DNA from: an uncultured Roseicyclus sp.
GTDB lineage: Bacteria; Pseudomonadota; Alphaproteobacteria; Rhodobacterales; Rhodobacteraceae
NCBI GenBank assembly: GCA_947494975.1
Contig: CANLXA010000005.1
Location: 1 to 64,000 of the forward strand
Length of the DNA stretch: 64,000 nt
Direction: 5' to 3'
Notes under the pieces: model-generated
The model's input: the letters and a program-made list of their open reading frames with translations, nothing else
The model's database searches: none
Told to the model about the DNA's origin: nothing
Shown here: one piece after another, positions 519 through 34,575 of the stretch
Numbering within the stretch: the first letter of the stretch is position 1
Layout of the letters: the number at the start of each line of letters is the position of its first letter
Position numbers and translations under genes: made by a program

Positions 519-668
519 ATGGCAGGTTGCATGCTGGATCTTGGCGACTCGAGTGGCGCGGTCCGAGAGATTGAAGGTATTCGCAATGGATTGGTGAGCG
601 CTGGCCTATTGCCGGAACATGAGCTCTTTCGTGAGCTGGAGAATGTTGAAGGGCGCTTAGCGATCTAA
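1..668 (+). CDS. TPR-like repeat protein, 3' end of gene (5' end outside window)
   Basis: The reading frame is open from the first base, so the N-terminus is missing. What remains is four nearly identical 42-residue units followed by one degenerate unit and a short tail. Each unit carries the pattern MAQCR-x-LGD-x-AGALAEL and ends RHPEVL-x-IRT, which resembles kinesin-light-chain/TPR helical hairpins. TPR repeats mediate protein-protein contacts. In bacteria such near-identical arrays often form the C-terminal sensor part of larger STAND-type or effector proteins, but the missing N-terminus prevents any choice here. The gene points towards the accessory cassette and away from the late operon, so it is probably another cargo gene of the prophage. 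The repeat call is firm; the role is unknown. Confidence 0.75.
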   Translation, partial: IRTIMAQCRRSLGDNAGALAELTEHLPISIDARGQRHPEVLTIRTIMAQCRRSLGDNAGALAELTEHLPISIDVFGERHPEVLAIRTMMAQCRMGLGDSAGALAELTEHLPISIDVLGERHPEVLTIRTIMAQCRRNLGDNAGALAELTKHLPISIDARGSHHPSTQLIHIVMAGCMLDLGDSSGAVREIEGIRNGLVSAGLLPEHELFRELENVEGRLAI

Positions 669-836
669 GGGCAATTTCAAGAATGCATTGAGATATGAGG
701 TTTGTTGCCGGAAAGAAGGAGCGGCATAACTGCCCCGATAGTAACATTGCGGTAACGACCTCAGAACACGCAATCGCAACTGGCAAAGTCCACATTGCGC
801 ACAGGCCGCTGTTGTGACAGCCCAATGGCATGCATC

Positions 837-1214
837 TCACGCCGGTTCCATCGCCCCCTGGCTCGCGGGCTGGCCCACCGTCCGCTGAACGCCGAAGATA
901 TCCCGCAAAGACATCGCCTCTGTCGCCGCCCCGGCGACAGCGGCAGACGCGGTCGGCGCATAAAGCTGCAGGGCCGCCGCCGGGGTGGCATAGCTGGCAT
1001 CCACGTCGAACACGCCGTTATTGCCCACGTTGACCGTCATGTTCGCGGTCCGGCCTGCACCGATTGCCCCATCGTGCCGGATGCCGAACGTCTCGCGCGG
1101 TGCGATGGGAGCGCCCAGAGCCGTCCAGCCGGTGGGGGCGATCGGCGTGTCCCCATAGTTCGGGGCATAGACCACGTTGTCGCGGGTCTCTTCATAGCCG
1201 GTGTAGAACGATGC
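837..1214 (-). pseudogene. Remnant of the 3' end of the phage fibre gene
   Basis: The minus-strand translation matches the last ~125 residues of the fibre protein encoded at 3778-6081 with scattered substitutions: APIAPRETFGIRHDGAIGAG here against SPIAPRETFGIRHDGAIGAG there, and both end in QPASQGAMEP plus one residue. Similarity starts at the stop codon and ends abruptly near 1214, where the sequence changes to the start of the accessory cassette. There is no N-terminal part or plausible start, so it is not expected to make a functional protein. The divergence suggests it derives from a related phage and not from a fresh duplication. Confidence 0.85.
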
Positions 1215-1225
1215 GACCCTTCCAA

Positions 1226-1254
1226 TTGACGCTTGGAATCACGTTCCGTACTCT
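1226..1254 (+). promoter_or_regulatory. Promoter-like sequence of the accessory cassette
   Basis: TTGACG at 1226-1231 and TACTCT at 1249-1254 are separated by 17 bp and lie 27 bp before the first start codon, immediately after the end of the fibre-gene remnant. The spacer holds a small inverted repeat, GGAA-TCACG-TTCC. The -10 match is weak. Confidence 0.45.
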
Positions 1255-1280
1255 AAGGCAGAACGAACGGGACAAGTGGT

Positions 1281-2198
1281 TTGAGCAGCGCGGCCTTTAG
1301 CATTGCCTTCGAAGGCCAACCTTTTGACCAAGGTGAAATCGATATCAAAGACCTTGCACCCGCATTGCTGGCGCTTGGTGATGTCGTACAAGCCGCAAAT
1401 AGAGCTTTGAACGGTGATCGAGCAGACGCGCGTCTCAAAGTGAAGGCAACCAAAGAAGGTTCCTTCGAAGCTCTACTTGCACTGGATGTAAGTTGGGTCA
1501 CGGACATGCTCGACGTGGTTGCTGCAAACCCAGACCGCATGACCGCAGCAAAAGACCTTGTTGATCTCGTGTTCAAAGCTGGTGGAGGCGCAGGGGCAGC
1601 AACGATTGGCGTTGTTCAAGCTCTCAAACTTATTCGGGGCAAAAAGCCAGAGAAGATTGAAGAGAAGTCCTCTGGTGTTTCAATAACCGTCAACAATACG
1701 ACTATTCAGATGAAACCGAAGGCATTTCAACTCCTGCAAGATCAGCGCACTAGAGAGAACATCGAGAAATTTGGGAACAAAACCCTCGGCATCCAAGGCC
1801 TTGAGAACGTTAGGATCGGAGCTGATGCGGATGGCGAGTCTCTTTCAATCAGTAATAGTGACGTGTCAGCTCTTCGTATTCCCGAACCGAGTGATGATGA
1901 GGCAGAAACCAACATCAGTCATGTAACCCTTTGGCTACGGCTGGTAACGCCGCAATTCGAAGGTGGCTATAAGTGGCGTTTCTCGGACGGCGGTGAACGT
2001 CGTTTTACAGCAGAGATGGAAGACACCGATTTCTTGAATCCTGTGCTAGCTGGTGATGTCACCATGAGTGCAAATGATACTCTCCGTTGCTTAATCCGTG
2101 AAGAGCAAGAAATTCGGGGAGGGAATTTGGCCAAAACGGTGTTTGTCGAGAAAGTGCTTGATCACCGCCGGGGTGATACGCAACTGCGATTAGTTTGA
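1281..2198 (+). CDS. Conserved protein of unknown function, first gene of accessory cassette (305 aa)
   Basis: I cannot assign a characterised family. The N-terminus has a conspicuous motif, F-x-G-x-x-x-DxGEIDxxDLAPALLALG (residues 10-33), of a kind I associate only with uncharacterised proteins of genomic islands. Residues 92-118 are hydrophobic and Gly/Ala-rich, which could be a membrane-inserting or buried segment. The C-terminal half looks beta-rich with an acidic linker near residue 205. The start is TTG, the first usable start after an in-frame stop at 1254-1256, and no strong ribosome site is visible. Its stop abuts the ATG of the HNH gene, so the two are probably translated together. 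The DNA is visibly more A+T-rich than the phage genes around it, which suggests separate acquisition. Confidence 0.7.
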   Translation: MSSAAFSIAFEGQPFDQGEIDIKDLAPALLALGDVVQAANRALNGDRADARLKVKATKEGSFEALLALDVSWVTDMLDVVAANPDRMTAAKDLVDLVFKAGGGAGAATIGVVQALKLIRGKKPEKIEEKSSGVSITVNNTTIQMKPKAFQLLQDQRTRENIEKFGNKTLGIQGLENVRIGADADGESLSISNSDVSALRIPEPSDDEAETNISHVTLWLRLVTPQFEGGYKWRFSDGGERRFTAEMEDTDFLNPVLAGDVTMSANDTLRCLIREEQEIRGGNLAKTVFVEKVLDHRRGDTQLRLV

Positions 2199-2912
2199 AT
2201 GGCAATAACGCAGAAATCCGTCAAGATTCTCTGGTCAGCGTCGGGTGGGCGATGTGCGTTTCCAGGGTGCTGGGAACGGCTGTGCTATCATGAGGCCGAA
2301 GAGGCCGCACCATTCACGCTGGGCGAGATGGCCCATATCTGCGGGGACAAGCCGGGTGCCAATCGGCATGATACAATGCAATCCGCCCCGGAGCGCGACG
2401 GTTATCAGAACCTGATCTTGCTCTGTCCAACACATCACACGCTGATCGACCGCAAGGAAAACGAGGCAGAATACACGGTCGCTGCCCTGCATGCGATGAA
2501 AGCCGAGCATGAAGCCCGCGTGCTGGCGCGCATAGATCAAGATGCAATGACAACCAAGGTCGACATAGCTCGAGCCATCCTGCCCCTGCTGGAAGAGAAC
2601 AGGCAGTCCTGGGCACAATATGGTCCGTTGTCAGAACTTGCCCGGTCGCAGCCCCACAATTTGGCAGTGCATGCAGTGTGGGAGTCGGAACGGCTCTCGG
2701 TAATCGCGCCCAATAACCGCAAGATGTCGGCTGAGCTCGACGCACATCGGGGCTTGTTTGACACAAGCGAACAGACCGTGCTCACGGCGTTCCTGCAGCA
2801 CGCGCGCAGCTATGCGAAATGGGTCGAGGATGAGATCCCATATGCTGCGGTGAGGCGTTTCCCGGTGGAATTGGATGATTTAATCAGAGGGCTTGCCGAT
2901 GACAGCGCATAG
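2199..2912 (+). CDS. HNH endonuclease of accessory cassette (237 aa)
   Basis: The N-terminal ~85 residues form a complete HNH/zinc module: C19-x4-C24, H46-I-C48, then Y69-Q-N71-L-I-L-L-C76-P-T-H79-H80 and L-I-D84. These supply the zinc ligands and the metal-binding His-Asn-His set of the beta-beta-alpha-metal nuclease fold. Residues 86-237 are helical, without a fold I recognise, and could be a sensor or partner-binding domain. ATG 2199 directly follows the previous stop and the 3' end overlaps the next gene. HNH modules of this type occur in restriction-like and anti-phage effectors, so DNA cleavage is the likely activity. Its trigger and target are unknown. Confidence 0.85.
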   Translation: MAITQKSVKILWSASGGRCAFPGCWERLCYHEAEEAAPFTLGEMAHICGDKPGANRHDTMQSAPERDGYQNLILLCPTHHTLIDRKENEAEYTVAALHAMKAEHEARVLARIDQDAMTTKVDIARAILPLLEENRQSWAQYGPLSELARSQPHNLAVHAVWESERLSVIAPNNRKMSAELDAHRGLFDTSEQTVLTAFLQHARSYAKWVEDEIPYAAVRRFPVELDDLIRGLADDSA

Positions 2913-3309
2913 CGAGCATTTCCCTTGGCCTAGCCACTACGGCCACTTCAACTATTTTGAAGCCCAGATGACTAAACACGGCAAAGTGGCCGACCTGACG
3001 GCGCAGGGCGGCGGTGTTTATGAATTGACACGCACTCAAGGCGATACGCTGCGCGTGTTCATCTGCGAGTGCTACGCATTCGGCGTGGCGGAATACCTAG
3101 AGACGGTCGAGAACATCGGGAAGATCGATGTTGTAATCATCAATTCTGCATGGAGCGGCTATACGCAGGATGCCAAGGCCCATTGTTGCGAGTCCAATGT
3201 CGGCCTGTTCAAGATCGGGGAATTCATGGGGGCGATGCACCGCGACGATTACTGGCGCTATCTGACCGACAAAGAAAAGGAATACTTCAAAAAGCGAGAC
3301 TGGCTGTGA
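2899..3309 (+). CDS. Conserved small protein preceding a nucleotidyltransferase (136 aa)
   Basis: No named domain can be assigned with confidence. The C-terminal half has a distinctive run: I-N-S-A-W-S-G-Y, then D-A-K, then V-G-L-F-K-I-x-E-F-M-x-A, ending YLTDKEKEYFKK-x-WL. From memory, proteins with this pattern are found directly upstream of small nucleotidyltransferases in bacterial islands. ATG 2899 overlaps the HNH gene by 14 bp (a TTG six bases earlier is possible). Its own stop overlaps the next start by 4 bp, which points to coupled translation and a functional pairing with the nucleotidyltransferase. Confidence 0.7.
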   Translation: MTAHSEHFPWPSHYGHFNYFEAQMTKHGKVADLTAQGGGVYELTRTQGDTLRVFICECYAFGVAEYLETVENIGKIDVVIINSAWSGYTQDAKAHCCESNVGLFKIGEFMGAMHRDDYWRYLTDKEKEYFKKRDWL

Positions 3310-3626
3310 CGCGCAGTGTTACAGTCTATGGTTTCGGCTCCGCTTTCGCCAGAAAAGACACAGATAAGACAGTCGCTACTGACATTGACCTATTGATCAT
3401 CCATCCTGGCACTGGTCCCGAATCCTGTCAGTTGGCCATCGCGTGCAAACGGCGGCTTGCTAAGTCCGTTGACCGCGCTCACATCACCATGCTCGCCGAC
3501 TGCGAAGAGGCGGATCTTCAGTTCATCAAAGCCGCGCGGGCGGTGAGTATCGGTACTATACGTGAAGAGTATTTCGACGGAGATCTGGGAACGCTTGGCG
3601 CCGCGCTTCCACGATTGGGTACTTGA
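3306..3626 (+). CDS. Minimal nucleotidyltransferase-like protein (106 aa)
   Basis: The N-terminus carries the polymerase-beta-type nucleotidyltransferase signature: G11-S12 in a G-F-G-S-A context, followed by D26-I-D28-L-L-I. D65 is a possible third acidic residue. At 106 residues it is the size of MNT partners in HEPN-MNT toxin-antitoxin pairs and of other stand-alone minimal transferases. The GTG start at 3306 overlaps the preceding stop (GTGA). Neither neighbour shows an obvious HEPN R-x4-6-H motif, so a classical HEPN-MNT pair is not supported. The activity (AMP or other nucleotide transfer to a protein or RNA) is inferred from the family. Confidence 0.75.
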   Translation: MTRSVTVYGFGSAFARKDTDKTVATDIDLLIIHPGTGPESCQLAIACKRRLAKSVDRAHITMLADCEEADLQFIKAARAVSIGTIREEYFDGDLGTLGAALPRLGT

Positions 3627-3767
3627 TTGGCCGTGCGCGTGGCAATCACCAGCTTCAACCGCGAAATGTCTGACAGCGATGCGTTGGGCGATGATGCGCA
3701 TGGGCGAACCATGACCAAAGGTTACTTTGATAGCACCTCAGAGGTGCTGCAAATCATTCTAAACTAG
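3627..3767 (+). CDS. Possible 46-aa ORF after the nucleotidyltransferase
   Basis: An open frame begins with TTG immediately after the nucleotidyltransferase stop, in the same frame, and ends at TAG 3765-3767. The C-terminal GYFDSTSEVLQIIL vaguely resembles the G-x-Y-x-SxSEVxxxxL motif of ParD-type antitoxins but is cut short. No ribosome site is seen. It may be a degenerate fragment. Confidence 0.2.
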   Translation: MAVRVAITSFNREMSDSDALGDDAHGRTMTKGYFDSTSEVLQIILN

Positions 3768-3777
3768 CGAGGCCGCC

Positions 3778-6081
3778 TCAGACCGGCTCCATCGCCCCTT
3801 GGCTCGCGGGCTGGCCCACCGTCCGCTGAACTCCCAAGATATCCCGCAAGGACATCGCCTCGGTCGCCGCCCTGGCGACAGCGGCAGACGCGGTCGGGGC
3901 GTAGAGCTGCAGGGCGGCCGCTGGGGTGGCGTAGCTGGTATCCTCGTCGAACACGCCGTTATTGCCCACATTGTCGGTCATGCTGGCGGTCAGGCCCGCA
4001 CCGATGGCCCCATCGTGCCGGATACCGAAGGTCTCACGCGGTGCGATCGGGGAGCCCAGAGCCGTCCAGCCGGTCGGGGCGATAGGCGTGTCCCCATAGT
4101 TCGGCGCATAGACCACGTTGTCGCGGGCCTCCTCATAGCCGGTGTAGAACGATGCAATTCCAACCAGCGCCGAGCCCGCCGGGTTCTCCAACTCATCCGC
4201 CGCGCGCGTCGTGGCCTTGAGGTCAATCGTGGTGTTGCCGATCACCCGCACCGGGTGCTGGACCACCTCGTCATTCATGCCGTCCACCCAGCCGTTTCCG
4301 TTGTAGGACGGAGCGATCACTTCGGTCAGGCCGATATTCCAGTCACCGCCGCGGTCGTCGTCGGCATTGACAGCCTTCCAGCGCAGGACGTCGGGCCGGA
4401 CACAGACATTCTCCACGATGGAGGAACACGACCGCCGCAGATTGATCGCGCCACTGACGCTGAAGGACCCAAGGCAGAGATTGTGCTTGGCCAGCGTGTT
4501 GATCGGCCATGTGTGGCCCCGGCACGAGGCGTCCCCGGCATTGAAGCCCGGCGGGCAGATGATGGCACCCGGCGGATCGTCGGTGCCGCCCGCGCTGTCG
4601 GACAGGATCAGCACCGAGCCACCCTCCAGCGTGTTGCCGTAGATGATGACAGAGCCGGGCGCGATGCCCCATTGCTGAGGGCTGAGGGTGTTGAGGCGGA
4701 TACACGGTTGCACATCGGCGCCCCAGTCCTGGCGGCTGTAGAGATCGGATCCACGCACCAGGATGGTATGGGCGTTTTCCACGCGCATGGGACCGTGTTC
4801 ATTCTGGTCCCCGGCCTTGCCGTTCAGGCCCATGGCGCTGTCAGGTCGATGGGCAATACGCGACCCGAGGATAGAGACGTTCTGATAGAAGCTTTCCACC
4901 GCCGCGCCCGTCACCATGACGCCGTATTCGCGCCAGCCCGTGACGTCCGTGTCGCACAACACCATCGAGCGGTCGCCGAGGGCAATCCCCTGACCGCTGT
5001 TGAGGCCGAAATTGACAGGCGAACCCGCCTTGTCCATCAGGCAATCGTGGGCCAGGTAGTGCCGCCCGCCTTCACCTCCGAACAGGCTTTGCTGCGCGCC
5101 GGAGCCGCTTTCGTCGAACGCGTCCCAATCCCCCCGAAGATCGAGGCCGTCAAGGATGAAGAACCCACCTTGCGCGGCCTGCGCCACATCGCTGGATCCA
5201 TCGGTAAACAGGCTACCGCCCTGCGAGGCGTGGACGATGGGCCGCGCACCGCTGCCATAGGTCCCGAGATAGAGGTTGGGGTTTGCGGTGGGAACCGAGC
5301 TGCTGCCGGTCCCGTTCCAATCGGTCAGGCTGGCCGCCTTGAAGAACACGGCCACCGGATTTGGCTGCGCCTCGGCCCATTCCATCACCCGGAACAGGGA
5401 ATTCGAGTTGAGGGGCAGGCTACCGGGCGTGTTGGCCCCTGACGGGATATCGGAATCCGCCGCGTAGTGGGCATCCATGGCCGCCTGACCAGACGGCGGC
5501 GCGTCGGGGTCGAAGTAGATCCGCTGCGCCAGGGGGAACGCCTCATCCACCGAGGGGATCGCCGCATGGTCGCCGCCGCTGGCAAAGGTGATGGTCTTGC
5601 GGGCCACCAGATCGCGGGTGACGTTGTTCGACCCGTCCACACCCATGCGATAGGCGCTGCATGTCACCGTCTTGTCGCCCGGCGTCGCGAAGACATGGTT
5701 GATCACCTTGCCGTGCCCATAGTCGCGCGAGCGGTAGAGCGCCGAGAGGTGCCGCGCCGCATAGGCCCAGTCGCCGGTTTCCCCGAAGGACCACTCGAAT
5801 TCCAGCTCGTGCAACTGCTGGTCGTATTCGTCGTAGGCCGCGGTTGCCGTGTTCGTCCGGGTGGGCAGGCCCGTGGCGCTGGTAACGGTTGCTTCGAACC
5901 AGATCGACGCGGGCGCGGGCGTGCCGGGCGCGTGGCTGACATCGATGGTCATGGTGCCCACATCGGCCAGCGCGCCCTGGCGCCATGCCGGGACGGTCAG
6001 CGGGTCGAGGGTGATGGCACCCTGGGCGGCCCGCAACGTCACGGGGTCGCCCTGCCTGGGGCCTAGCAAACCAATCGTCAT
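3778..6081 (-). CDS. Phage fibre / receptor-binding protein with PKD-like and parallel beta-helix regions (767 aa)
   Basis: This is the last gene of the late operon and one of the longest, the usual place of the receptor-binding protein. Residues ~90-175 look PKD-like (F-E-W-S-F-G ... H-V-F-A-T-P-G-D-K-T-V). From ~190 to 640 there are repeated short strands with G/N-rich turns and phrases such as ILDGLDLRG and ILVRGSDLY, typical of a right-handed beta-helix. The last ~125 residues are duplicated, with substitutions, at 837-1214, so this end is subject to exchange. It overlaps the upstream gene by 4 bp (ATGA). It probably binds or degrades a surface polysaccharide; enzymatic activity cannot be judged. 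Confidence 0.75.
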   Translation of the reverse strand: MTIGLLGPRQGDPVTLRAAQGAITLDPLTVPAWRQGALADVGTMTIDVSHAPGTPAPASIWFEATVTSATGLPTRTNTATAAYDEYDQQLHELEFEWSFGETGDWAYAARHLSALYRSRDYGHGKVINHVFATPGDKTVTCSAYRMGVDGSNNVTRDLVARKTITFASGGDHAAIPSVDEAFPLAQRIYFDPDAPPSGQAAMDAHYAADSDIPSGANTPGSLPLNSNSLFRVMEWAEAQPNPVAVFFKAASLTDWNGTGSSSVPTANPNLYLGTYGSGARPIVHASQGGSLFTDGSSDVAQAAQGGFFILDGLDLRGDWDAFDESGSGAQQSLFGGEGGRHYLAHDCLMDKAGSPVNFGLNSGQGIALGDRSMVLCDTDVTGWREYGVMVTGAAVESFYQNVSILGSRIAHRPDSAMGLNGKAGDQNEHGPMRVENAHTILVRGSDLYSRQDWGADVQPCIRLNTLSPQQWGIAPGSVIIYGNTLEGGSVLILSDSAGGTDDPPGAIICPPGFNAGDASCRGHTWPINTLAKHNLCLGSFSVSGAINLRRSCSSIVENVCVRPDVLRWKAVNADDDRGGDWNIGLTEVIAPSYNGNGWVDGMNDEVVQHPVRVIGNTTIDLKATTRAADELENPAGSALVGIASFYTGYEEARDNVVYAPNYGDTPIAPTGWTALGSPIAPRETFGIRHDGAIGAGLTASMTDNVGNNGVFDEDTSYATPAAALQLYAPTASAAVARAATEAMSLRDILGVQRTVGQPASQGAMEPV
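3781..4155. repeat. Second copy of the direct repeat flanking the cassette
   Basis: This stretch, the 3' end of the intact fibre gene, is repeated in direct orientation at about 840-1214. The two copies bracket the four-gene cassette and could let it be gained or lost by homologous recombination. Confidence 0.85.
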
Positions 6082-7784
6082 GAAAGATCCTCGATTTGGA
6101 CAGAGCGCAAATTCACCGCATCAGAGGCGTTGTTTCCGAGGAACGCCCCCCAGCTCGGCGCGCCGCCTGTGATGGTGATGCCCGCCATGGTGGCGACCGA
6201 ATTGCCGTTGATGAACACCTCGGCATCGCCACCGATGATTTCGGCGCGGATCACATCGCCCGGTTGCAGGGTAATCGACCCGATGATTTGCGCCTGCAAA
6301 TCCGCCCCGCCGCTATACTCGTTGATGTAAAGCTCGTTCGAGATCGTGCGGAAGAACATCCGGAACCCGGTTTCGTCCAGGCCTGTCCCCGATGCCCGCA
6401 GGGTGAAGGTTGGATCGGCCCGGTTATTGCGGACGAAGTTCTCCAGAACAATCTCCATCGCCTGATCGTCCGGGATGGCCCCGGCATAGGCGATGCGAAT
6501 GTTCTTGCTGGCCGCAGATCGTGTGATGCTCGCAATGCCAAGCGGCGAGACGTTGGCCGCGATCTGCGCGTCAGTGGCGAACAGGGTCTGCCAATTGGCC
6601 GAGGTGGCCGGGATATCGTCGTTCAGCGCGTAGCCGTCCGCGGCGTCGAATTCGTCAAGCAGCAATGGGCCAGACGATGTAACCGACACCGGGTCGGACG
6701 GTGCGACCCGTGTGCCATTATTGTCGGACAAGGTCTCGACGATGCGGATATCAAGGCCCGCCTCGTTGGAGGTGATCAGATAGGAACCTGACGTGGCGCC
6801 TGCGATATCATCGTCGAACGTGCCGGTTCCCTCACGCTGCCATTGAAGGGCGGGTTCAGCGTCCAGACCACCCGCCTCGACGCGATAGACCCACAGCCCC
6901 GGATACGTTTGTAGTGTGTCACCCTCATCCGCTGAACCGTCGTCAATGATCTGCCGCGGCACCAGGTTGATCGGGCCAAGGTCCAGATCGCCCTCGTCGA
7001 AGATGAACACACCGGGGCCGTCACCCGCGTCGTAATTCGCGTATTCCGGCGGCGCGGTGAACGTCAGTGTGACGATGCCATCCTCGCCGACCACCACGGC
7101 TTCCTGTTCGGCAGTCTGGTTGAGCGCGAAGGCCGGCAGCACCGTCGCCAGTGGCAGGTTATAGATCGCATCGACGGCATCGGTTGCGGAATAGACGACA
7201 TTGACGGTGCCGACCTCATCAGCCACGGCCGGGTCACTCATCCCGGTGATGGTGATGGTCCGAGCGACGGTCCCGGCGCCGCTTGTGCTGGCTTCACCCG
7301 CATCGGCGGTATCACCACCCGCGGGGTCGGTCATGCGGGCAATGATCGCGGCGTGCGTCTCTCCATCAACAACGGACCCGATGCCCACCGTTGATGGCGC
7401 ATCGGCGATGGAGATGATCGCGGCGGCCACGGTGCCGGTCGCGACAGACGTCCATGAGCTGGTCGACCCACCGCCCTCGGCCACGTCGACCTGCATCTGG
7501 ACATCGATCGCGTCGCCAACGGCCCCTGTGGGCACCTGCAGCGTCGCGCCGGCCTGCGGCCCATCCACCACCTGACCGCCCACCACCAGGCGATAGCGCC
7601 GCGCGGTCGGCACCGCCGCGAGGCCGTCATAGGTCCACGTGTCATTCGTGCTGACAACCAGATCGGTGCCGCTGGTGGCGTTCCCGGTCACCGTGGGCGC
7701 GGCGTTCAGCACCGGGCGGATCGCGGCGGCCACAAGGGACGGCAGGCGGCCGGTGGTGAGGCCGAAACCGTAGCCGTAGGCCAT
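6078..7784 (-). CDS. Phage tail fibre / structural protein, beta-sandwich-rich (568 aa)
   Basis: The protein is low in Lys, rich in Gly/Ala/Thr/Val and organised as successive beta-domains. Ig-like stretches fill the first ~200 residues, and a region around 250-340 contains W-x-Y-R-V and L-Q-W-Q-R-E-G-T-G phrases. The C-terminal ~180 residues (LLLDEFDAADGYAL ... AEVFINGNSVATM) resemble a concanavalin/LamG-type sandwich. It starts four bases inside the end of the spike-base gene and overlaps the following fibre gene by 4 bp, so the three are translationally linked. It is probably a tail-tip or fibre component; the exact role is not recognisable. Confidence 0.65.
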   Translation of the reverse strand: MAYGYGFGLTTGRLPSLVAAAIRPVLNAAPTVTGNATSGTDLVVSTNDTWTYDGLAAVPTARRYRLVVGGQVVDGPQAGATLQVPTGAVGDAIDVQMQVDVAEGGGSTSSWTSVATGTVAAAIISIADAPSTVGIGSVVDGETHAAIIARMTDPAGGDTADAGEASTSGAGTVARTITITGMSDPAVADEVGTVNVVYSATDAVDAIYNLPLATVLPAFALNQTAEQEAVVVGEDGIVTLTFTAPPEYANYDAGDGPGVFIFDEGDLDLGPINLVPRQIIDDGSADEGDTLQTYPGLWVYRVEAGGLDAEPALQWQREGTGTFDDDIAGATSGSYLITSNEAGLDIRIVETLSDNNGTRVAPSDPVSVTSSGPLLLDEFDAADGYALNDDIPATSANWQTLFATDAQIAANVSPLGIASITRSAASKNIRIAYAGAIPDDQAMEIVLENFVRNNRADPTFTLRASGTGLDETGFRMFFRTISNELYINEYSGGADLQAQIIGSITLQPGDVIRAEIIGGDAEVFINGNSVATMAGITITGGAPSWGAFLGNNASDAVNLRSVQIEDLS

Positions 7785-12892: not shown

Positions 12893-13649
12893 AGAAGCTC
12901 ACCGTCATGGCAACTGAAACGAACCCACCAAGCCGCATCTTTGGCCGAAGCTCTGCCGCGCCGGGGCCACGCCAGCAATAGGCTATATCCCCAGGAAACA
13001 GGCTCGGCCCGCCCGCATAGAAGAACGGCTGCCCCGCATTGAACCGGGCGCGCACGGCGTCACCATTCGCCCGCCACCACGCATCATCCAACACCGCAAG
13101 ATCGATGTCCGTTTCGCCGCTCGTCCGAATGATCCGCTGGGGCAAGAACTGGCCCGACAAGGTCAGACCGCCAAGGATCTCGCTCCGCTGAGCCCATTCG
13201 GTTGGCACGTATCCATCCAGCAAGCCGCGCTGGAATGAAATGGCCCGGCCAAGCATCAACACGCCGACACTGGACGCCGCCGCGCCGCCCGCAATCGCGA
13301 TCTCAACGGTCTGCTCCGTTACCTCAGGGAACAGCATCATCACCGCACTGTCATCTGGAGGGGCAAATGTGGCGACATCAGCTCCGCCTGCCCGCACCGT
13401 CACCGTCGCACCCTTCGATCCCAGATCATGTGCCGCAATGCACAGACAGTCGAACGGGAGCGCGCCCGAAAACGTGAATTCCGCGTCGGCATTGACGGCG
13501 GTGGGCGACCAGAAATCAAAGGTCGCCCCGTTTGTCGCAAGCGACGCATCGCCTCCGCCCGTCACAATAACCGTTGCTGTTTCCAACAGGTTCTCGACAA
13601 GAAACGTCGGTAGATTGGTGGCAGGATAACCGGCCTCGATATGGATCAT
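12885..13649 (-). CDS. Minor tail protein, distal-tail candidate (254 aa)
   Basis: Beta-rich protein directly following the tape measure (4-bp overlap) and overlapping the hub gene by 8 bp. Its place suggests a distal tail protein that terminates the tube. Visible phrases such as GRAISFQRGLLDGYVPTEWAQ and SFYA at the very end do not identify a family to me. Confidence 0.55.
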   Translation of the reverse strand: MIHIEAGYPATNLPTFLVENLLETATVIVTGGGDASLATNGATFDFWSPTAVNADAEFTFSGALPFDCLCIAAHDLGSKGATVTVRAGGADVATFAPPDDSAVMMLFPEVTEQTVEIAIAGGAAASSVGVLMLGRAISFQRGLLDGYVPTEWAQRSEILGGLTLSGQFLPQRIIRTSGETDIDLAVLDDAWWRANGDAVRARFNAGQPFFYAGGPSLFPGDIAYCWRGPGAAELRPKMRLGGFVSVAMTVSFYA

Positions 13650-16015
13650 GCCTGCACCACAGAAATGCGCGCACCGTTCTCGGTTTCCCTGTAGATTTGT
13701 TCCATCAGGTCACCCACCATCGATTTCACCCATTCCGGGCTATTGCCGAAATCAATCAAGACGCGCCGTTCGGACTCCTGAGCCTCGCGCAGGGGTGCCG
13801 CGCTCTGTCCTCCTTGCGACGGAGACGTGGAGACGCCCCCACCACCGACCTTTCCGCCCGCCGCCTTGATCGCCGCAACACCGCGCAAGCCCGTCGCAAG
13901 AACGCTGGCATACGCGGCGAAACGGCCGGCCAGGCTGATACCGGGCTGAGCCAGTGCCTGGGTTGCCGCCAGGTAGGAGTTGATGGTGGCCTGCACTGCA
14001 CCGAAGATTGCCGCTGAACGCGCCATGCCCTGCCCACCCGCGGCAGCGACTTCCTGCAGCGCCCCGAAAAAGGTGGCAGTATCCGACAGCGTCGATGATT
14101 GGCTGGTCGACCTGATCTCTGCCAGACGGCGTTGATATTCTTCCTCGATCCGCAACAACTGCGCTCGATGTTCTTCCTCACCCAGCAACTCGATGGCGCG
14201 TTGATCGCCCAGTATCTCCTGCTGCTCCTGATACCAGCGGTCCAGCGCCTCGCGCTCGGTTTCAAGGCTGCGCACCAGGCCCTGCAATCGCCCCGCAAAA
14301 CCATCGCCGCCGCCTCCACCGCCGCCGCCCGAGGCAGCGCCAGGGCCACCGGCCTCACCCTCCACCGGCGCGGACGTTTCACCACCGGCGGTGTCCACTG
14401 TCTGCTGGAGGGCTTCCCGAAGCGCCGCCAGGCTCTCCAGTGGCGCTGTCGCCGCCTCCGTTGCCGCCTGCCCCATACTGCCGAGAATATCAGAGGCATC
14501 CGCCGCGTTTGAGGCCACCTCCCGCAAACCTTCCGCGATCGACGAATTGCCCACATAGTCTTGCCCAAACGCATCGGAGAATGCCTCGGAGGCGGCCTGC
14601 GCCACACCAACCACATCCTCGCCGGTTTGGATGAACCCGCTCACGTCGAAATCGGCAATGTTGAAACCGGGGATCCGGTTGATGGCCGCAATGATGCCGT
14701 TAATCGCCGAACCCATGCGCTCGACAAGGGCGTTGGAGGCGCGCACGGCCAGCGCTTCCATGGCAGCAGGAAGCTGGTTCCAAGCCGCGATGATTGCCTC
14801 ATATGTGCCCACAAACGTGCCAATAACGCTGTTTGAAAAACCAGCCAGGCGATCAACGATGTTTGCAATAGTGGTCACGATCGCCGACCGGATCGACAGC
14901 CATTCGCTCTGCACCTTGAAGCGCAGCGCCACGACGCCGAGCCCAACCCTCGCCCACACTTCATTGCCTACAGCACCCAGAAGTTCGAGCGCCGCGCCCA
15001 CACTTCCGGTCGCTTCGACCAGCCGCGCGAATTCGGCAACAAGATAGCCCGCGCCAACGATCAACGCGCCGATCCCGGTGGTGATCAGCGCCGTGCGAAG
15101 AACCGCCAACGCGCCCGACAGGGTGAAGGTCGAAATCGTCGCAACCGCCAGGGCCCCCACATACCGAACTCCGAAAACGGTAACGGCAACCCCCATGCTG
15201 GCGACAATGACGTCCATGTTTTCCGCCAGCGCGTCGATGATTGTGCGAAAGGCGCCGCCCTCTTGCATCGCTTCGACGAACGCATCCGCCAACGCGGTCA
15301 AGGCAGGCGCCAGCGCCCCGGCAATCCGAAAGCCGACGCCGGCCACAGCATTGCCCGCCTCATCCAGTGATCTGCGAAGGGCGGTCATTGCCGCGACCGT
15401 TTCATCGGACATGACAGCGCCCAGGTCGGCGGCGTTTTGGCCAAGCCGGGCCATTTCCTCGCCATTGTTGCGAAGCAGCGGCAGCAACGCGGTCGCGTCC
15501 GAGGCCATGGCCTCCAGGTAGAAAGTCATCTCCTGTTGGCTCAGGCCCGCGGCCTCCAGCGATGAAACATATAGCTGCAGGGCATCGGGACCTGACAGAT
15601 CGCGGAACGCGTCTGCGGTAATACCAACACGCGGGGCGATGTTCTCGAAAAAATCGGCCATCGGCCCGCCGCCGGTGGATAGAAAATCTCCGACCCGATC
15701 ATTCACATCTTTCAGGACATCAGCCAGTTTCTCCTGTTCGATCCCCACGGTCTCGGCGGCCGCCGCCCACCGCTGAAACTGTTCAGGTGCCGCATTGGCG
15801 ACTTGCGAGAAGCGCGAGATTTCCGAAGCCGTCCGCGACACCGAAACCGTGAGCGCACTCAGGGCGGTCCCCAGGGCCGCTGCCACACCCGCGACGGCCA
15901 GGAACTGGCCCCGCATCCGGCGCAGGGTCGACGATGCGCCGCGGGCGCCCCGCGTGAATTGCGCGCTATCCAAGCCCAGGTTGACACGGAGCGCGCCGAT
16001 TACGCTGTTTGACAT
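13646..16015 (-). CDS. Tail tape measure protein (789 aa)
   Basis: The longest late gene, lying after the G/GT pair. The N-terminal phrase LGLDSAQFTRGARGASSTLRRMRGQF is typical of phage tape-measure N-termini. Long helical stretches, hydrophobic segments (about 250-300) and a coiled-coil C-terminal third with a poly-Gly linker follow. The protein sets tail length and leaves with the DNA at ejection. ATG 16015 is preferred over a start 30 bases upstream because GGGAG lies 8 bases before it. With 789 residues, a tail of moderate siphovirus length is expected. Confidence 0.85.
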   Translation of the reverse strand: MSNSVIGALRVNLGLDSAQFTRGARGASSTLRRMRGQFLAVAGVAAALGTALSALTVSVSRTASEISRFSQVANAAPEQFQRWAAAAETVGIEQEKLADVLKDVNDRVGDFLSTGGGPMADFFENIAPRVGITADAFRDLSGPDALQLYVSSLEAAGLSQQEMTFYLEAMASDATALLPLLRNNGEEMARLGQNAADLGAVMSDETVAAMTALRRSLDEAGNAVAGVGFRIAGALAPALTALADAFVEAMQEGGAFRTIIDALAENMDVIVASMGVAVTVFGVRYVGALAVATISTFTLSGALAVLRTALITTGIGALIVGAGYLVAEFARLVEATGSVGAALELLGAVGNEVWARVGLGVVALRFKVQSEWLSIRSAIVTTIANIVDRLAGFSNSVIGTFVGTYEAIIAAWNQLPAAMEALAVRASNALVERMGSAINGIIAAINRIPGFNIADFDVSGFIQTGEDVVGVAQAASEAFSDAFGQDYVGNSSIAEGLREVASNAADASDILGSMGQAATEAATAPLESLAALREALQQTVDTAGGETSAPVEGEAGGPGAASGGGGGGGGDGFAGRLQGLVRSLETEREALDRWYQEQQEILGDQRAIELLGEEEHRAQLLRIEEEYQRRLAEIRSTSQSSTLSDTATFFGALQEVAAAGGQGMARSAAIFGAVQATINSYLAATQALAQPGISLAGRFAAYASVLATGLRGVAAIKAAGGKVGGGGVSTSPSQGGQSAAPLREAQESERRVLIDFGNSPEWVKSMVGDLMEQIYRETENGARISVVQA

Positions 16016-16063
16016 ATGGGCACTCCCCTGTTGATCGGGCTGCAAACGGCCGCGTGGGTGGTT

Positions 16064-21283: not shown

Positions 21284-22529
21284 CACCTTCGCCTCCATCG
21301 GTTTGCGCGCCGTCATCCGGCTCGCCCATTTGATCAATCGGCACGGTGCCGGATTGAATGAAAGTCCGATCGCCGCATTCCACAGGCGCCAGACCGTGGA
21401 ACTCCCGACCCTCGTTTTGCGTGAACTGTCCGCTGGCAATGCCGCGGGCAATGGCCTCGACCCGGTCTTTCAGAATACCCCGCGCCAATGCGTCCAGATC
21501 GAACTTCAGGTAATTCTGCGACCCTCGCCCAAAGAGCTTGAGCGTCAATTCCTGCGCGATCTGCGCGACCCGCGGTCCCAGTGTGTGCTTGATCAGGTGC
21601 AGATCCTGTTGCTCCACATTGGCGAAGGTGCCGGTCGAAAGATCTTGCAGGAAGACCGGCGGCAAGCCGTAAATCCTCGCCACTTGCTGAACCACGAACA
21701 CCTGCACCGCCGTCAATTGCATCTTCTCGGGATCGTCGCCGAGCCGTTTGAGCTGGTGTCCTACAGGTATCGGCATGATCGGCCGCCCGTTTGCGGCTGC
21801 CTTTCCGGCCGCCTTCGTCACGTCCACCGCTGCCCGTTCCGCCGTCGCGCCATCGGGAAACGGCCCCTCAAGCGTATAGGGCGGCACGCCGTTTTTTCCG
21901 AAGACCGTCAAAGCATAGTTTTCGGCATTCAGACCCTGTCGGATCGCGGCGGCACATTTCAGCACCGGGCAGTCGCTGGAAATCCAATCGGCCCGGCGCC
22001 GGAATGCCAGGTCAATGACTTCCGGCGCCGCATATTGGACTTGGCTCGCGCCGGTACGGGTGTAGCTGTAATAGACGCGCCCCGCGCCCGTTCGCAGAAC
22101 GTGGGTTGCATCATATTCCATCGGAAACAGATTGACCGGCTCGCCGCCTTGGCGCTCCACATAGATGTATCCCCGACCTTGGCCGAATTGTTCCCCATGG
22201 GCGATCTGGCGCACGTCGAAGGCCGTCATGCCGTCATTCGCAGCATCGTTCAGCACCCCGCGGATCGGGTGATCAATCAGCTTGTCGCCCTCCCCCTGCG
22301 GCCTCCGCTCAAATACTTGGATCGGCAGTGCCGCCAAAGTGGAGGCCAGAAACGTATTCGCCGCAAACACAGCCGGCAGAGACATCGCTTCGTTGAACGT
22401 GACGCTGGCATTTGCTCCGCCGTTGATGGCGTCCATCAGCCGCGTCAGACCAGGATCGACGACAACCTGCGCCCGCCCTTCGATGATGGCGGGTGCGGCA
22501 CCGCGGCGACGGAACAAGCCGAGTTTCAT
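21270..22529 (-). CDS. HK97-family portal protein (419 aa)
   Basis: The N-terminus (MKLGLFRRRG), the early helix FNEAMSLPAVFAANTFLAS, the central stem region and the motif GLPPVFLQDLSTGTFANVEQQ near residue 300 all fit HK97-type portals. The portal forms the dodecameric vertex through which DNA is packaged. It lies between large terminase (4-bp overlap) and protease. An acidic, flexible C-terminal tail (DDGAQTDGGEGDDTE) ends it. Confidence 0.85.
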   Translation of the reverse strand: MKLGLFRRRGAAPAIIEGRAQVVVDPGLTRLMDAINGGANASVTFNEAMSLPAVFAANTFLASTLAALPIQVFERRPQGEGDKLIDHPIRGVLNDAANDGMTAFDVRQIAHGEQFGQGRGYIYVERQGGEPVNLFPMEYDATHVLRTGAGRVYYSYTRTGASQVQYAAPEVIDLAFRRRADWISSDCPVLKCAAAIRQGLNAENYALTVFGKNGVPPYTLEGPFPDGATAERAAVDVTKAAGKAAANGRPIMPIPVGHQLKRLGDDPEKMQLTAVQVFVVQQVARIYGLPPVFLQDLSTGTFANVEQQDLHLIKHTLGPRVAQIAQELTLKLFGRGSQNYLKFDLDALARGILKDRVEAIARGIASGQFTQNEGREFHGLAPVECGDRTFIQSGTVPIDQMGEPDDGAQTDGGEGDDTE

Positions 22530-24337
22530 TGCAGCGCTTCCTCCATCGAGTAATTCGGGTCAGCCCAGGGCGAGACCGGTGGTTTTTCGACTTCCCGGCA
22601 AAGCGCCATGCCCACTGACATCGCCAAGGACACCATCCCGTCGATCCGGCCATGGGCCTTTTGTTTGTCAAACATGCGCGCGCCCGTCCGATTTTCCGCA
22701 TAGGTGGTCGACGCCGCCATGCTGTCCAACAATGGGTTCGGCGCGACTGTCAGGCGACCGTCGCCAATCGCTTCCTCGAACTTGTTGATGCTGTCGGGCA
22801 TCCACAGGAACACTTTCGACGTGTCATCGGGCGCCGCATCATCGTCGCCAAGGAACTTCTTTTGATATCCTTGCGGATGTATTTCAGCCGGGAACGTCAC
22901 GCCCAAATCGTCCAGGTGTTCCGTCAGTCGCTCCAACCCATATTGGTCACACCCAACAGAAGTCGGCCCGTATGCTGCGGTCAACTCGCCAAGCGCGTGA
23001 GCCAGCCAGGCATATTTCAGCCGCTTGCCCGGAACCGCTTCGCAATGCCCCTGATCCACCCATAGATCGTAGGGCGCCTGATCGATCGCACAGCGATCAA
23101 GGAGCGTATCTTTGGGCGTCCAAAGCCACGTTTTGGCCGCCAGTTTTTCGGCCCCTTTGGTCGCATCCAGAACCCAAGTCAGCGTGAAGGCGCTGAAATC
23201 ATTCACCTGCGACAGGTCGAGCCCACCGAAACACGGATAGCCCGCCTCCGTCAGCTCAACCGGATCGACAGCACCATGGCAAGCCATCCATGCTTCACGG
23301 CTGATCGCAGCCGTAACGCTCTGCGTCCATTGGCAGAAATGCAGCCGAGCGATCCCGTTGCGTTTGCCCGGCATTTGCTTGGCCGCCTTCACCTTCTTGG
23401 CGAGGTATTCCTCTGTCAGGATGTGGCCCAACAGCGGGTTCACCTTCAGCCAGCAGGCGGGATCGTTCTCCCAATCATCGCCCTCATCCAAGGAACAGAC
23501 AAAGGCAAAGGTCGAATCGTCCTCGGTCACGCCCGTGACCACGTTGACGGCGTGCTGGTGTTCCTCCCAGCAGATCGATTTTCGGTCTGTACCGGAATTG
23601 GTGGTCATCACCAGAAGCGGTTGCTCGCGAAACTTGAACCCCGCCTCCAGCATATCCACGGTGTCGCGGGTCCGATGCTCATGCACCTCGTCACACAGCG
23701 CGCAATGCGGCCGGGGCCCCGACTGCCCGCCTTCGGCAGATATCGGTTTGAAGACGCGCTTGTCGCCACGCTTTCCGGAATAGGTCAATTGCCAAACAGG
23801 GTTTTCGCCCTGCGCTGAAACCATCCGCTTCAAGAGAGGCGATTGATCCCGCATCGCAACGGCATCCCGAAACAGAACCTGCGCCTGATCCTTCTTCGAT
23901 GCCGCGGCGTAGACCTCAGCCCGCGCCTCATTGTCGGCGACCAGCATGAACAATCCGATACCCGCCGCCAGCGGCGACTTCCCGTTGCCTTTGCCTTCTT
24001 CATCGTAGAACCGGGTAAACCGGCGCTTGCCGCTCTCCGTCCACCTCCACCCGAACAGCGACCCGACCCGAAACGCCTGGCTTGGGTGCAATTTGAAGGG
24101 CTTCCCCTCGAATTGCCCACCGTTCAGCCGCAACACCTTCGGAAAGAACTTGATGGCCCGCAGCGCCGCATCCAGATCCCAGACCAGGCCACGCTCCGGC
24201 CCCTCGTCCAGATCGCGCAAGTGACGTGATGCGGCCGCACGAATGTATGGTCCGGCGACGATCTCGCCCGCCACAACCTCGCGCGCCCATGCCGTGACCG
24301 GATCGATCTCGGATCGAATGCGATCATGGGCCGTCAC
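22526..24337 (-). CDS. Phage terminase large subunit (603 aa)
   Basis: The ATPase domain shows a Walker-A-like E-E-G-K-G-N-G-K-S (about residue 114) and Walker B with catalytic acid in HCALCDEVHEH (about 218). The adjacent VMTTNSGT is a coupling motif. The nuclease domain begins GGLDLSQVNDFSAF (about 372) and has a second acidic motif at SVGCDQYGLE; ASTTYAENRTGARMFDK and RIDGMVSLAMSVGMA near the end are also typical. It cuts concatemeric DNA and pumps it into the prohead. Confidence 0.9.
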   Translation of the reverse strand: MTAHDRIRSEIDPVTAWAREVVAGEIVAGPYIRAAASRHLRDLDEGPERGLVWDLDAALRAIKFFPKVLRLNGGQFEGKPFKLHPSQAFRVGSLFGWRWTESGKRRFTRFYDEEGKGNGKSPLAAGIGLFMLVADNEARAEVYAAASKKDQAQVLFRDAVAMRDQSPLLKRMVSAQGENPVWQLTYSGKRGDKRVFKPISAEGGQSGPRPHCALCDEVHEHRTRDTVDMLEAGFKFREQPLLVMTTNSGTDRKSICWEEHQHAVNVVTGVTEDDSTFAFVCSLDEGDDWENDPACWLKVNPLLGHILTEEYLAKKVKAAKQMPGKRNGIARLHFCQWTQSVTAAISREAWMACHGAVDPVELTEAGYPCFGGLDLSQVNDFSAFTLTWVLDATKGAEKLAAKTWLWTPKDTLLDRCAIDQAPYDLWVDQGHCEAVPGKRLKYAWLAHALGELTAAYGPTSVGCDQYGLERLTEHLDDLGVTFPAEIHPQGYQKKFLGDDDAAPDDTSKVFLWMPDSINKFEEAIGDGRLTVAPNPLLDSMAASTTYAENRTGARMFDKQKAHGRIDGMVSLAMSVGMALCREVEKPPVSPWADPNYSMEEALQ

Positions 24338-33171: not shown

Positions 33172-33407
33172 CGGCACGGGCGACGATGCAGCCACGATTG
33201 ATGACGGCCCCCATGGCCGCAGCCTATCTGGGCGTCTCCGCCACCAAGCTGCGAGAGCTGCCGATCCCGCGCAAAGCCCTGGGTTCGAAGCGCCTCTATG
33301 AAATTGCCGATCTTGACGCCTATGCCGACTCTCTGCCCTATGTGGATGCTCCACCGCCGGACGATGGGGATTTATGCGCAGACGAGGCATTCGGGGTGGC
33401 CCATTGA
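33168..33407 (+). CDS. Excisionase / AlpA-like DNA-binding protein (79 aa)
   Basis: MTAPMAAAYLGVSATKLREL with I-P-R-K-A-L-G-S-K-R-L-Y-E-I-A-D-L-D-A-Y is a MerR/AlpA-type winged-helix motif used by phage excisionases. It lies directly before the integrase and overlaps its 5' end, as xis genes commonly do. It should bind the attachment site and direct recombination towards excision. Confidence 0.75.
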   Translation: MTARATMQPRLMTAPMAAAYLGVSATKLRELPIPRKALGSKRLYEIADLDAYADSLPYVDAPPPDDGDLCADEAFGVAH

Positions 33408-34450
33408 AGGGCCTGCGCCGCGTTCGACAGGACGGGAAGCTCTACGTCTACCATCGCGCGACTGGCATCCGGATGCCGGATCTGCCCGAAAACCATCTGG
33501 ATTTCCTCGACGCCTACCGAGAGGCAGAGCGCAGCCGGACCAACCCGAAACCCCGAGGCAAAGGCAAGCCGGGCACCATGCTGGCCGTCTGGCACGCCTA
33601 TTGCACCTCCGATGCATTCGCGATCCTCTCGGTGAGTTATCAGGGCGTCAGGCGCCGGGATGGCCACAAGCTTATAGAGACCGGTGGCGCGGTTCCGATC
33701 CGCAGCATCAAGCCCGGGCACATTCAGAATGATTTGGCAGCCCTGACACCCCATCAAGCCCGTGAGCGCCGCAAGACGTGGCGTGCGATCATGGCCTTCG
33801 CGATGGCGCGCGGCTTGATCCAGGTCGACCCATCCGCCGATGTGAAGACCGCCGCGCCGCCGAAGCCACGGCAGCACGAGCCGTGGACGCAATCAGACGT
33901 CGAGGCTTTCCGGTCCCGCTGGACAATCGGCAGCGCGCAGCGCCTTGCCTTTGAACTCATCCATTGGGCCGGTTGCCGTATTTCAGATGCCGTGCGGCTG
34001 GGGCCTGGCCACGTATCGGCCGATGGCTGGCTGGAATACCGGCAGCAAAAGACAGCCGGCCACGTGGCCATCCCTTTTGACCGTCCACTGCCGGAATTCG
34101 CCAATCCGGCCGACCTGGCACATCTGCATGCATCCATCGCCGCGCTTGGCACACGCCACATGACATGGCTGGCCACGGCGACGGGGCGGAGCCGGTCCGA
34201 AAAGGCCGCGAGCCAATGGTTTTCAGCCGCCGCCCGAACGGCTGGCCTCAAGGGGCGGACCGCCCATGGCCTGCGCGTAACCCGCGCAATCCTTTTGGCC
34301 GAAAGCGGCGCGAGCACGCACCAGATCGGCGCCTGGACCGGCCACGAATCCCTGAAAGAAATCGCCCATTACAGCCATCAAGCCGACAAGAAACGGATAC
34401 TGGATGGACCAAAGACGGAACGGAAAATTGTTCAGAACCGCAATTCCTGA
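33374..34450 (+). CDS. Tyrosine recombinase, phage integrase (358 aa)
   Basis: The catalytic set is visible in order: Arg in H-W-A-G-C-R-I-S-D-A (near residue 202), Lys in YRQQKTAGHV, H-G-L-R (near 297-300), G-H in AWTGHESLKE (near 323) and the nucleophile Tyr in AHYSHQ (near 333). ATG 33374 overlaps the excisionase by 34 bp; a TTG at 33404 within the excisionase stop is an alternative and gives 348 aa. The stop lies about 50 bp from the 3' end of tRNA-Arg, the likely attachment site. Confidence 0.9.
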   Translation: MRRRGIRGGPLKGLRRVRQDGKLYVYHRATGIRMPDLPENHLDFLDAYREAERSRTNPKPRGKGKPGTMLAVWHAYCTSDAFAILSVSYQGVRRRDGHKLIETGGAVPIRSIKPGHIQNDLAALTPHQARERRKTWRAIMAFAMARGLIQVDPSADVKTAAPPKPRQHEPWTQSDVEAFRSRWTIGSAQRLAFELIHWAGCRISDAVRLGPGHVSADGWLEYRQQKTAGHVAIPFDRPLPEFANPADLAHLHASIAALGTRHMTWLATATGRSRSEKAASQWFSAAARTAGLKGRTAHGLRVTRAILLAESGASTHQIGAWTGHESLKEIAHYSHQADKKRILDGPKTERKIVQNRNS

Positions 34451-34498: not shown

Positions 34499-34545
34499 TG
34501 GCGCGCTGGGGAGGATTCGAACCCCCGACCCCTTGATTCGTAGTC
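34499..34545. other. Probable attachment site (att) at the tRNA-Arg 3' half
   Basis: Integrase and excisionase lie immediately beside the 3' end of an intact tRNA gene, the standard layout for integration into a tRNA 3' half. The tRNA remains complete. A second copy of this 3' sequence should mark the other prophage end; none was seen in the first 4 kb of the window. The extent of the core is inferred. Confidence 0.55.
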
Positions 34546-34575
34546 AAGTACTCTATCCAACTGAGCTACCAGCGC
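34499..34575 (-). tRNA. tRNA-Arg(ACG)
   Basis: A full cloverleaf of 77 nt with CCA encoded. The acceptor stem is GCGCTGG/CCAGCGC, the D-arm contains AGCTCAGTTGGATAGAG, the anticodon stem CTTGA/TCAAG encloses loop CTACGAA with anticodon ACG, and the T-arm is GGGGGTTCGAATCCTCC-like. Only one arginine tRNA type fits. Confidence 0.97.

Follow-up and report, generated by a model that had tools for sequence, protein, structure and literature searches.

Minimal nucleotidyltransferases (MNTs) are known mainly as antitoxins of HEPN ribonucleases (RNases). In the type VII pair HepT/MntA, MntA is reported to modify the toxin HepT with AMP on a tyrosine, through the motif GSX10DXD (PMC7641770). The 64,000-nucleotide stretch of uncultured Roseicyclus sp. 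DNA analyzed here (the window, whose first base is base 1 of CANLXA010000005.1, contig C5 in its genome) carries an MNT gene in a prophage, at the end of a run of four plus-strand genes. Gene 1 (positions 1281 to 2198; 305 amino acids from a TTG start) is followed by gene 2 (2199 to 2912; 237 amino acids), encoding an HNH nuclease domain (approximately residues 1 to 115) and a C-terminal domain here called aC (approximately residues 116 to 237), by gene 3, here called X (2899 to 3309; 136 amino acids from the ATG at 2899), and by gene 4, encoding the MNT (3306 to 3626; 106 amino acids from the GTG at 3306). Genes 1 and 2 lie end to end, genes 2 and 3 overlap by 14 bp, and genes 3 and 4 overlap by 4 bp, in agreement with an initial annotation that described four tightly packed open reading frames (ORFs) and suggested a functional link between them. 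Genes 2 to 4 were found to be a recurring trio, and gene 1 a separate passenger.

Several described systems resemble the trio in part. HEPN/MNT pairs (HepT/MntA, type VII) share with it an MNT of ∼100 amino acids with a GS...DxD motif, encoded next to a partner in which a tyrosine is conserved, and the GSX10DXD-type motif is present as F-G-S and D-x-D in all 17 trio loci identified, with a variable spacer. However, X has neither a HEPN match nor the RX4HXY motif, and the trio has three genes, with an HNH domain or a membrane segment as its effector part. Cyclic oligonucleotide-based antiphage signaling systems (CBASS) of the HNH-SAVED (Cap5) type have an N-terminal HNH domain closely related to that of gene 2, along with exchangeable effector parts, but the trio has the 106-amino-acid MNT instead of a cGAS/DncV-like nucleotidyltransferase (CD-NTase), and the HNH part of gene 2 matches whereas the SAVED part does not. 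For the PADLOC candidate PDC-M68, the gene 2 HNH domain matches PDC-M68A (7e-32; residues 3 to 115), but the match stops before aC, at model position 115 of 253, and neither X nor the MNT matches any PDC-M68 model. On a Pseudomonas plasmid (L072, 2501 to 5210), an ABC-three-component locus is likewise a tightly packed operon of three genes that begins with a related HNH protein, but there the second and third genes encode the ABC-3C middle component 6 and a protein with DUF2326, with no aC, X, or MNT.

No model describing aC was identified in Pfam, NCBIfam, PHROG, or PADLOC as used here. The opinion that the combination matches no named system held within the libraries and literature searched; no account of the trio was found in the literature, in which coverage of preprints and subscription journals was thin and an earlier description is possible. 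As far as searched, the parts are of known kinds, and it is their combination, with effector exchange on a common aC-X-MNT base, that is undescribed.

Recurrence and linkage of the trio

The order effector-X-MNT was identified in 17 distinct proteobacterial loci, some chromosomal and others carried by plasmids or prophages (the window, L010, L011, L012, L013, L014, L016, L017, L021, L028, L029, L030, L035, L036, L037, L065, and L066), with joints that range from overlaps to gaps of at most 3 bp. Eight of these loci are on plasmids and two, the window and L021, are on phage-type contigs. Duplicates were left uncounted (L015, the same as L014; L049 and L050, near-identical to L036; and L051 and L052, further Ensifer records grouped with L037). 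The starts used for the MNTs of L014, L017, and L036 and for the HNH protein and X of L030 are alignment limits rather than start codons, making their overlaps and lengths approximate and overstating the L014 overlap.

Three genome samples (398, 203, and 190 members) and a set of 72,556 plasmids were searched. Using a first aC profile, 6 of the 398 genomes of the phylum were matched, 5 of them with the trio; the sixth (G433, locus L031) was discarded as spurious, its match spanning 57 residues and no HNH ORF accompanying it. A second profile matched two genomes in each of two class-level samples, 203 genomes from that of G514 and 190 from that of the window, in every case with aC-X-MNT. On plasmids, a Vibrio aC query matched 13 records, all 13 with the trio, and X queries matched 4 and 8 records, every one of which was among those 13. 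Searches of 295 family genomes recovered X in 3 and the MNT in 2, the MNT of G046 being missed by the single-sequence search and seen as an ORF. Among the plasmid records, the MNT genes of Novosphingobium and Polymorphobacter were unannotated and were recovered as ORFs, and in one Rhizobium record the HNH gene was annotated in shortened form. Neither X nor aC was found apart from the other trio genes in the searches run.

As a control, five loci with matches to gene 2 and no trio (one of them annotated as an ATP-binding protein) were screened, and no aC or X was identified among their 101 ORFs at an E value of ≤1; thus, the linkage is a property of aC rather than of HNH proteins in general. 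An HNH match was present in 370 plasmid records, at least 17 of which were inspected, and in most of the others, among the matches listed, it covered the HNH part only. Pairwise-distance correlations between X, the HNH protein, and the MNT were 0.95, 0.86, and 0.89 across 15 loci (reached by 0 of 2000 permutations), figures that were computed without a tree and to which kinship of the carriers contributes. Between the window and L010, differences pile up at third codon positions in all three trio genes. Genes 2 to 4 are a mobile three-gene module, found here as prophage cargo.

Among phage records, aC and X of the window were unmatched. Three scans of viral contigs returned one contig; queries from L014, L028, and L017 returned none, as did gene 1 and the tail gene described below, in scans that reach close relatives only. 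In G046 (L011, 2174 to 12678), the trio stands between what by eye are tape measure and phage primase genes, and this apparent tape measure protein has no similarity to that of the window.

Effector parts, trio proteins, and a proposed mode of action

In L065, a membrane segment (mean hydropathy of 2.57; 19 residues) replaces the HNH domain ahead of aC and is followed by aC (1.4e-14), a short X (7.1e-8), and an MNT (4.1e-7; E values relative to 118 ORFs). At L066, the start of the HNH gene is overlapped over 11 bp by a TIR gene (Pfam TIR_2, 1.1e-19; PADLOC PDC-S66, 7.8e-60). The membrane version and the TIR neighbor indicate that the N-terminal effector part is exchangeable, as in known abortive-infection systems. 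Drt3a/Drt3b, an NTase-HEPN gene, and an integrase gene neighbor L012, and Shedu neighbors L017; L021 lies near a DUF4365-TPR gene and, by eye, apparent terminase and capsid genes. Annotated integrases were present near L035 and L037, and one was recognized by eye near L030. The neighborhoods are mobile and partly of defense type, and this context, together with the exchange of effectors, suggests a role in defense or abortive infection.

The share of plasmid-borne and phage-type loci, and an MNT of the type VII antitoxin kind, would also suit a plain toxin-antitoxin system, in which the HNH protein (with X) would be a DNase toxin and the MNT its antitoxin, the whole retaining plasmids and prophages with no real role against phages. 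We regard this as quite unlikely, given that several loci are chromosomal or lie in defense-type neighborhoods, that immunity better fits effector exchange and the TIR neighbor, and that short MNTs occur beside intact HNH genes.

The call of an HNH nuclease on gene 2 is borne out by a match to Pfam HNH_2 (2.1e-5). Its N-terminal part also matched a PADLOC model of a CBASS-type HNH effector (5.6e-32; residues 3 to 117), and PDB entry 9om4 and SAVED-type HNH chains matched this part only, with all PADLOC and PDB matches ending by residue 138 of 237. Five residues of aC are invariant in all 17 loci (N134, P143, W161, N172, and H201), and searches with aC found nothing among PDB sequences and nothing consistent in Pfam. 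AlphaFold, given two sequences of the HNH protein, modeled aC as helices with a mean predicted local distance difference test score (pLDDT) of ∼50 to 82 per ten residues and the HNH part at <50; a Foldseek search with this model identified nothing at an E value of ≤0.001. The candidate assignment of aC as a HEPN domain had no sequence support and was rejected.

The HNH motif is intact in 16 of the 17 loci, and the same kind of HNH domain occurs in Shedu-type models (PADLOC SduA, 4e-14), as might be expected if the HNH protein cut incoming DNA in a restriction-like manner, X aiding recognition and the MNT modifying or regulating. Such a scheme is a long shot: no methyltransferase or DNA-binding domain was recognized in X or aC, and DNA restriction of this sort would be beyond the membrane version found in L065.

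Residues F10, G11, S12, D26, and D28 of the MNT are invariant in all 17 loci, the spacer between FGS and DxD varying in length, and the D26/D28 pair is thus as the initial annotation described it. Pfam NTP_transf_2 was matched by 12 of 15 aligned relatives and by the window copy only at 0.25, and no PADLOC match was obtained for gene 4. The MNT profile found the solved MNTs 2rff (5e-5) and 5yep, an antitoxin (0.006), and touched HalB, a nucleotidyltransferase of the Hailong system, at an E value of 0.18. This contact, an HNH domain nearest to CBASS-type effectors, and an effector part exchangeable behind a common domain would be compatible with CBASS-like signaling, whereby aC would sense a nucleotide or oligonucleotide made by the MNT, possibly together with X, and switch the HNH or membrane part on or off. 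We consider this unlikely, as an MNT of ∼100 amino acids is far smaller than CD-NTases, no SAVED match was obtained, and the matches to gene 2 stop short of most of aC, which finds nothing among PDB sequences. The precedent for a small MNT is reported to act on a protein (PMC7641770).

X occurs in short (104 to 138 amino acids) and long (∼212 to 215 amino acids) forms. An hhalign comparison (97% probability over 98 columns) shows the long form to share homology with the short one in its C-terminal part. Y59 is the sole fully invariant residue (17/17). No match to X was identified in PDB or in the Pfam, NCBIfam, PHROG, or PADLOC models used, nor any HEPN family match. An SGNH assignment was taken as chance, the best Pfam score (0.0035, in 2 of 15 members) being below the cutoff, and the best PDB profile match (0.17) was to a designed protein; assignment of X to a known fold was rejected. 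A degenerate PD-(D/E)XK fold would be sheer conjecture from the succession of likely strands and helices.

MntA modifies a tyrosine of HepT, and by analogy the MNT is proposed to modify X. The model that we prefer, to which we give a little less than an even chance, is an abortive-infection-type trio in which nucleotidylation of X by the MNT would keep the effector off until infection. Gene 2 would supply the effector and its control domain, as an exchangeable HNH DNase fused to aC, and X and the MNT would be the control pair. The MNT would attach a nucleotide to X, for which Y59 is the best candidate site, and nucleotide-bearing X would keep the effector silent via aC; phage infection would upset this control, and the nuclease would then cut DNA. 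We infer the anti-phage role, the action of the MNT as an inhibitor rather than an activator, Y59 as the target, and contact between X and aC. Conversely, the MNT might act as an activator or give rise to a diffusible signal.

A number of observations weigh against the preferred model. The motif R-X4-6-H-X-Y is present in 0 of 17 X proteins and in 1 of 17 HNH or membrane proteins (L037), and its absence from X limits the HEPN/MNT parallel to mechanism. X is without a known fold, and the AlphaFold model from its single sequence (pLDDT of 40) was not used. The third metal ligand of MntA (D71) is apparently His, Asp, or Ser in these MNTs, judged by eye. In the Acinetobacter locus L013, the MNT is short (70 amino acids) and lies beside IS66 genes with the HNH gene intact, and a short MNT (55 amino acids) with HNH intact also occurs in two members of a set of three near-identical Rhizobium records; a short MNT beside an intact HNH gene fits badly with an essential antitoxin. 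These Rhizobium plasmid records (L036, L049, and L050) differ in the region only at gap columns, which shorten the MNT or the HNH gene, and sequencing error is the likely cause. The X of L065 is weak with the short-X profile alone (9e-4) and nonsignificant with the long-X profile (0.14), and this membrane-type locus is single, with none in three other genomes of its family and no plasmid matches. Several loci have no recognized defense neighbor, and 3 of 10 chosen neighbor proteins matched PADLOC, weakly (best, 7.3e-8). Lastly, PDC-M63AB, a PADLOC candidate carried by a prophage, has an A component with weak resemblance to the MNTs of L065 and L066, and it was reported to give no defense on testing (PMC12409345).

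Gene 1 and the prophage cargo site

Gene 1 belongs to the PDC-S42/LAPAL_fam/phrog_3243 family, with whole-length matches to PADLOC PDC-S42 (2.1e-99; residues 1 to 304, model positions 1 to 298 of 302), NCBIfam LAPAL_fam (1.4e-66), and phrog_3243 (8.9e-50). Relatives were found in seven phage records, seven plasmid records, and 6 of 290 family genomes, its own included. The relative in Lactobacillus phage A2 lies between the lysin and integrase genes and that in Listeria phage vB_LmoS_188 beside the integrase gene, phage cargo sites like that of the window, which differs in that gene 1 directly precedes the trio, an arrangement seen at no other locus examined. Using tblastn against 23 trio stretches (duplicates included), only the window matched, so that all 16 remaining trio loci lack gene 1; it was also found in 0 of the 7 other trio genomes. 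Conversely, no aC, X, or MNT match was identified at an E value of 0.1 among 424 ORFs from eight loci with gene 1 relatives. The foursome therefore exists in the window alone among the 17 trio loci, and the link suggested between the four genes stands for genes 2 to 4, with their constant order and tight joints, and falls for gene 1. That all four form one functional system, for which the end-to-end placement of genes 1 and 2 in the window would speak, is largely refuted by these co-occurrence data and can hardly be sustained. On these comparisons, gene 1 is unrelated, independent single-gene cargo that happens to stand upstream of the trio.

One gene 1 relative (L060, 1788 to 5002, in G096) lies near genes that by eye resemble those for a DNA cytosine methyltransferase and for a GHKL-type ATPase, giving the region the look of a defense island.

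The prophage setting is confirmed by an integrase gene (33374 to 34447) beside a tRNA-Arg (34499 to 34575), a large terminase gene (22529 to 24337), and a tape measure gene (13649 to 16045), and the cassette does oppose the late operon, the end of which is formed by minus-strand genes at 3778 to 6081 and 6078 to 7784. The promoter-like sequence ascribed to the cassette was not recovered: a sigma-70 scan of positions 600 to 4200 returned two sites against a shuffle mean of 1.7, both on the minus strand inside gene 1, with none upstream of gene 1.

The initial annotation had missed that the cassette is bracketed by two tail-gene 3′ ends of 379 bases each, 91% identical, on the minus strand. The right bracket (3777 to 4155) belongs to the intact tail gene at 3778 to 6081 (767 amino acids), forming its 3′ end, and the left bracket (836 to 1214) is a truncated second copy identical to it at 343 of 379 bases. 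The coding part of the two ends has 36 differences, with 4, 5, and 27 at codon positions 1, 2, and 3 (nonsynonymous divergence dN, 0.037; synonymous divergence dS, 0.33), and this excess at position 3 indicates that both copies diverged under selection as protein. The simplest reading is that related phages recombined and the cassette was brought in with another allele of the tail-gene end. Among 295 sampled family genomes, the tail-gene end was found only in its own (1/295), where another copy of the tail gene, 77% identical, lies on contig C6. That region (L038; G000:C6:22000-41000) holds a second copy of both distal tail genes, the 77% figure being for the larger, and adjoins apparent methyltransferase, glycosyltransferase, and sugar-nucleotide genes, recognized by eye.

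A distal attachment site was sought as a repeat of the tRNA-Arg in the first 8 kb, where the best-scoring match had at most 14 exact bases. With the contig beginning at base 1, the far end of the prophage may be missing. Positions 1 to 668 consist of near-identical 126-bp tandem repeats that encode a TPR protein (partial match to NCBIfam FxSxx_TPR) and run off the contig start, and the assembly break may lie within them.

Implications

The locus illustrates how a true module can be separated from a mere neighbor in a prophage cargo site, and the duplicated tail-gene end suggests a route by which such cargo arrives. In the trio, which is compact and amenable to testing, a shared domain and X, with its one invariant tyrosine, link a tiny nucleotidyltransferase to a DNase and, once, to a membrane effector. 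Should Y59 carry the nucleotide, the control of toxins by MNTs would extend beyond HEPN proteins. More tentatively, and with the greater weight on the side of doubt, the trio may represent a new class of nucleotidylation-gated immunity, in which X and the MNT act via the adaptor aC to restrain interchangeable killer domains (an HNH DNase, a membrane segment, and perhaps TIR). If true, the gating idea known from HEPN/MNT would become a modular, effector-swapping platform.

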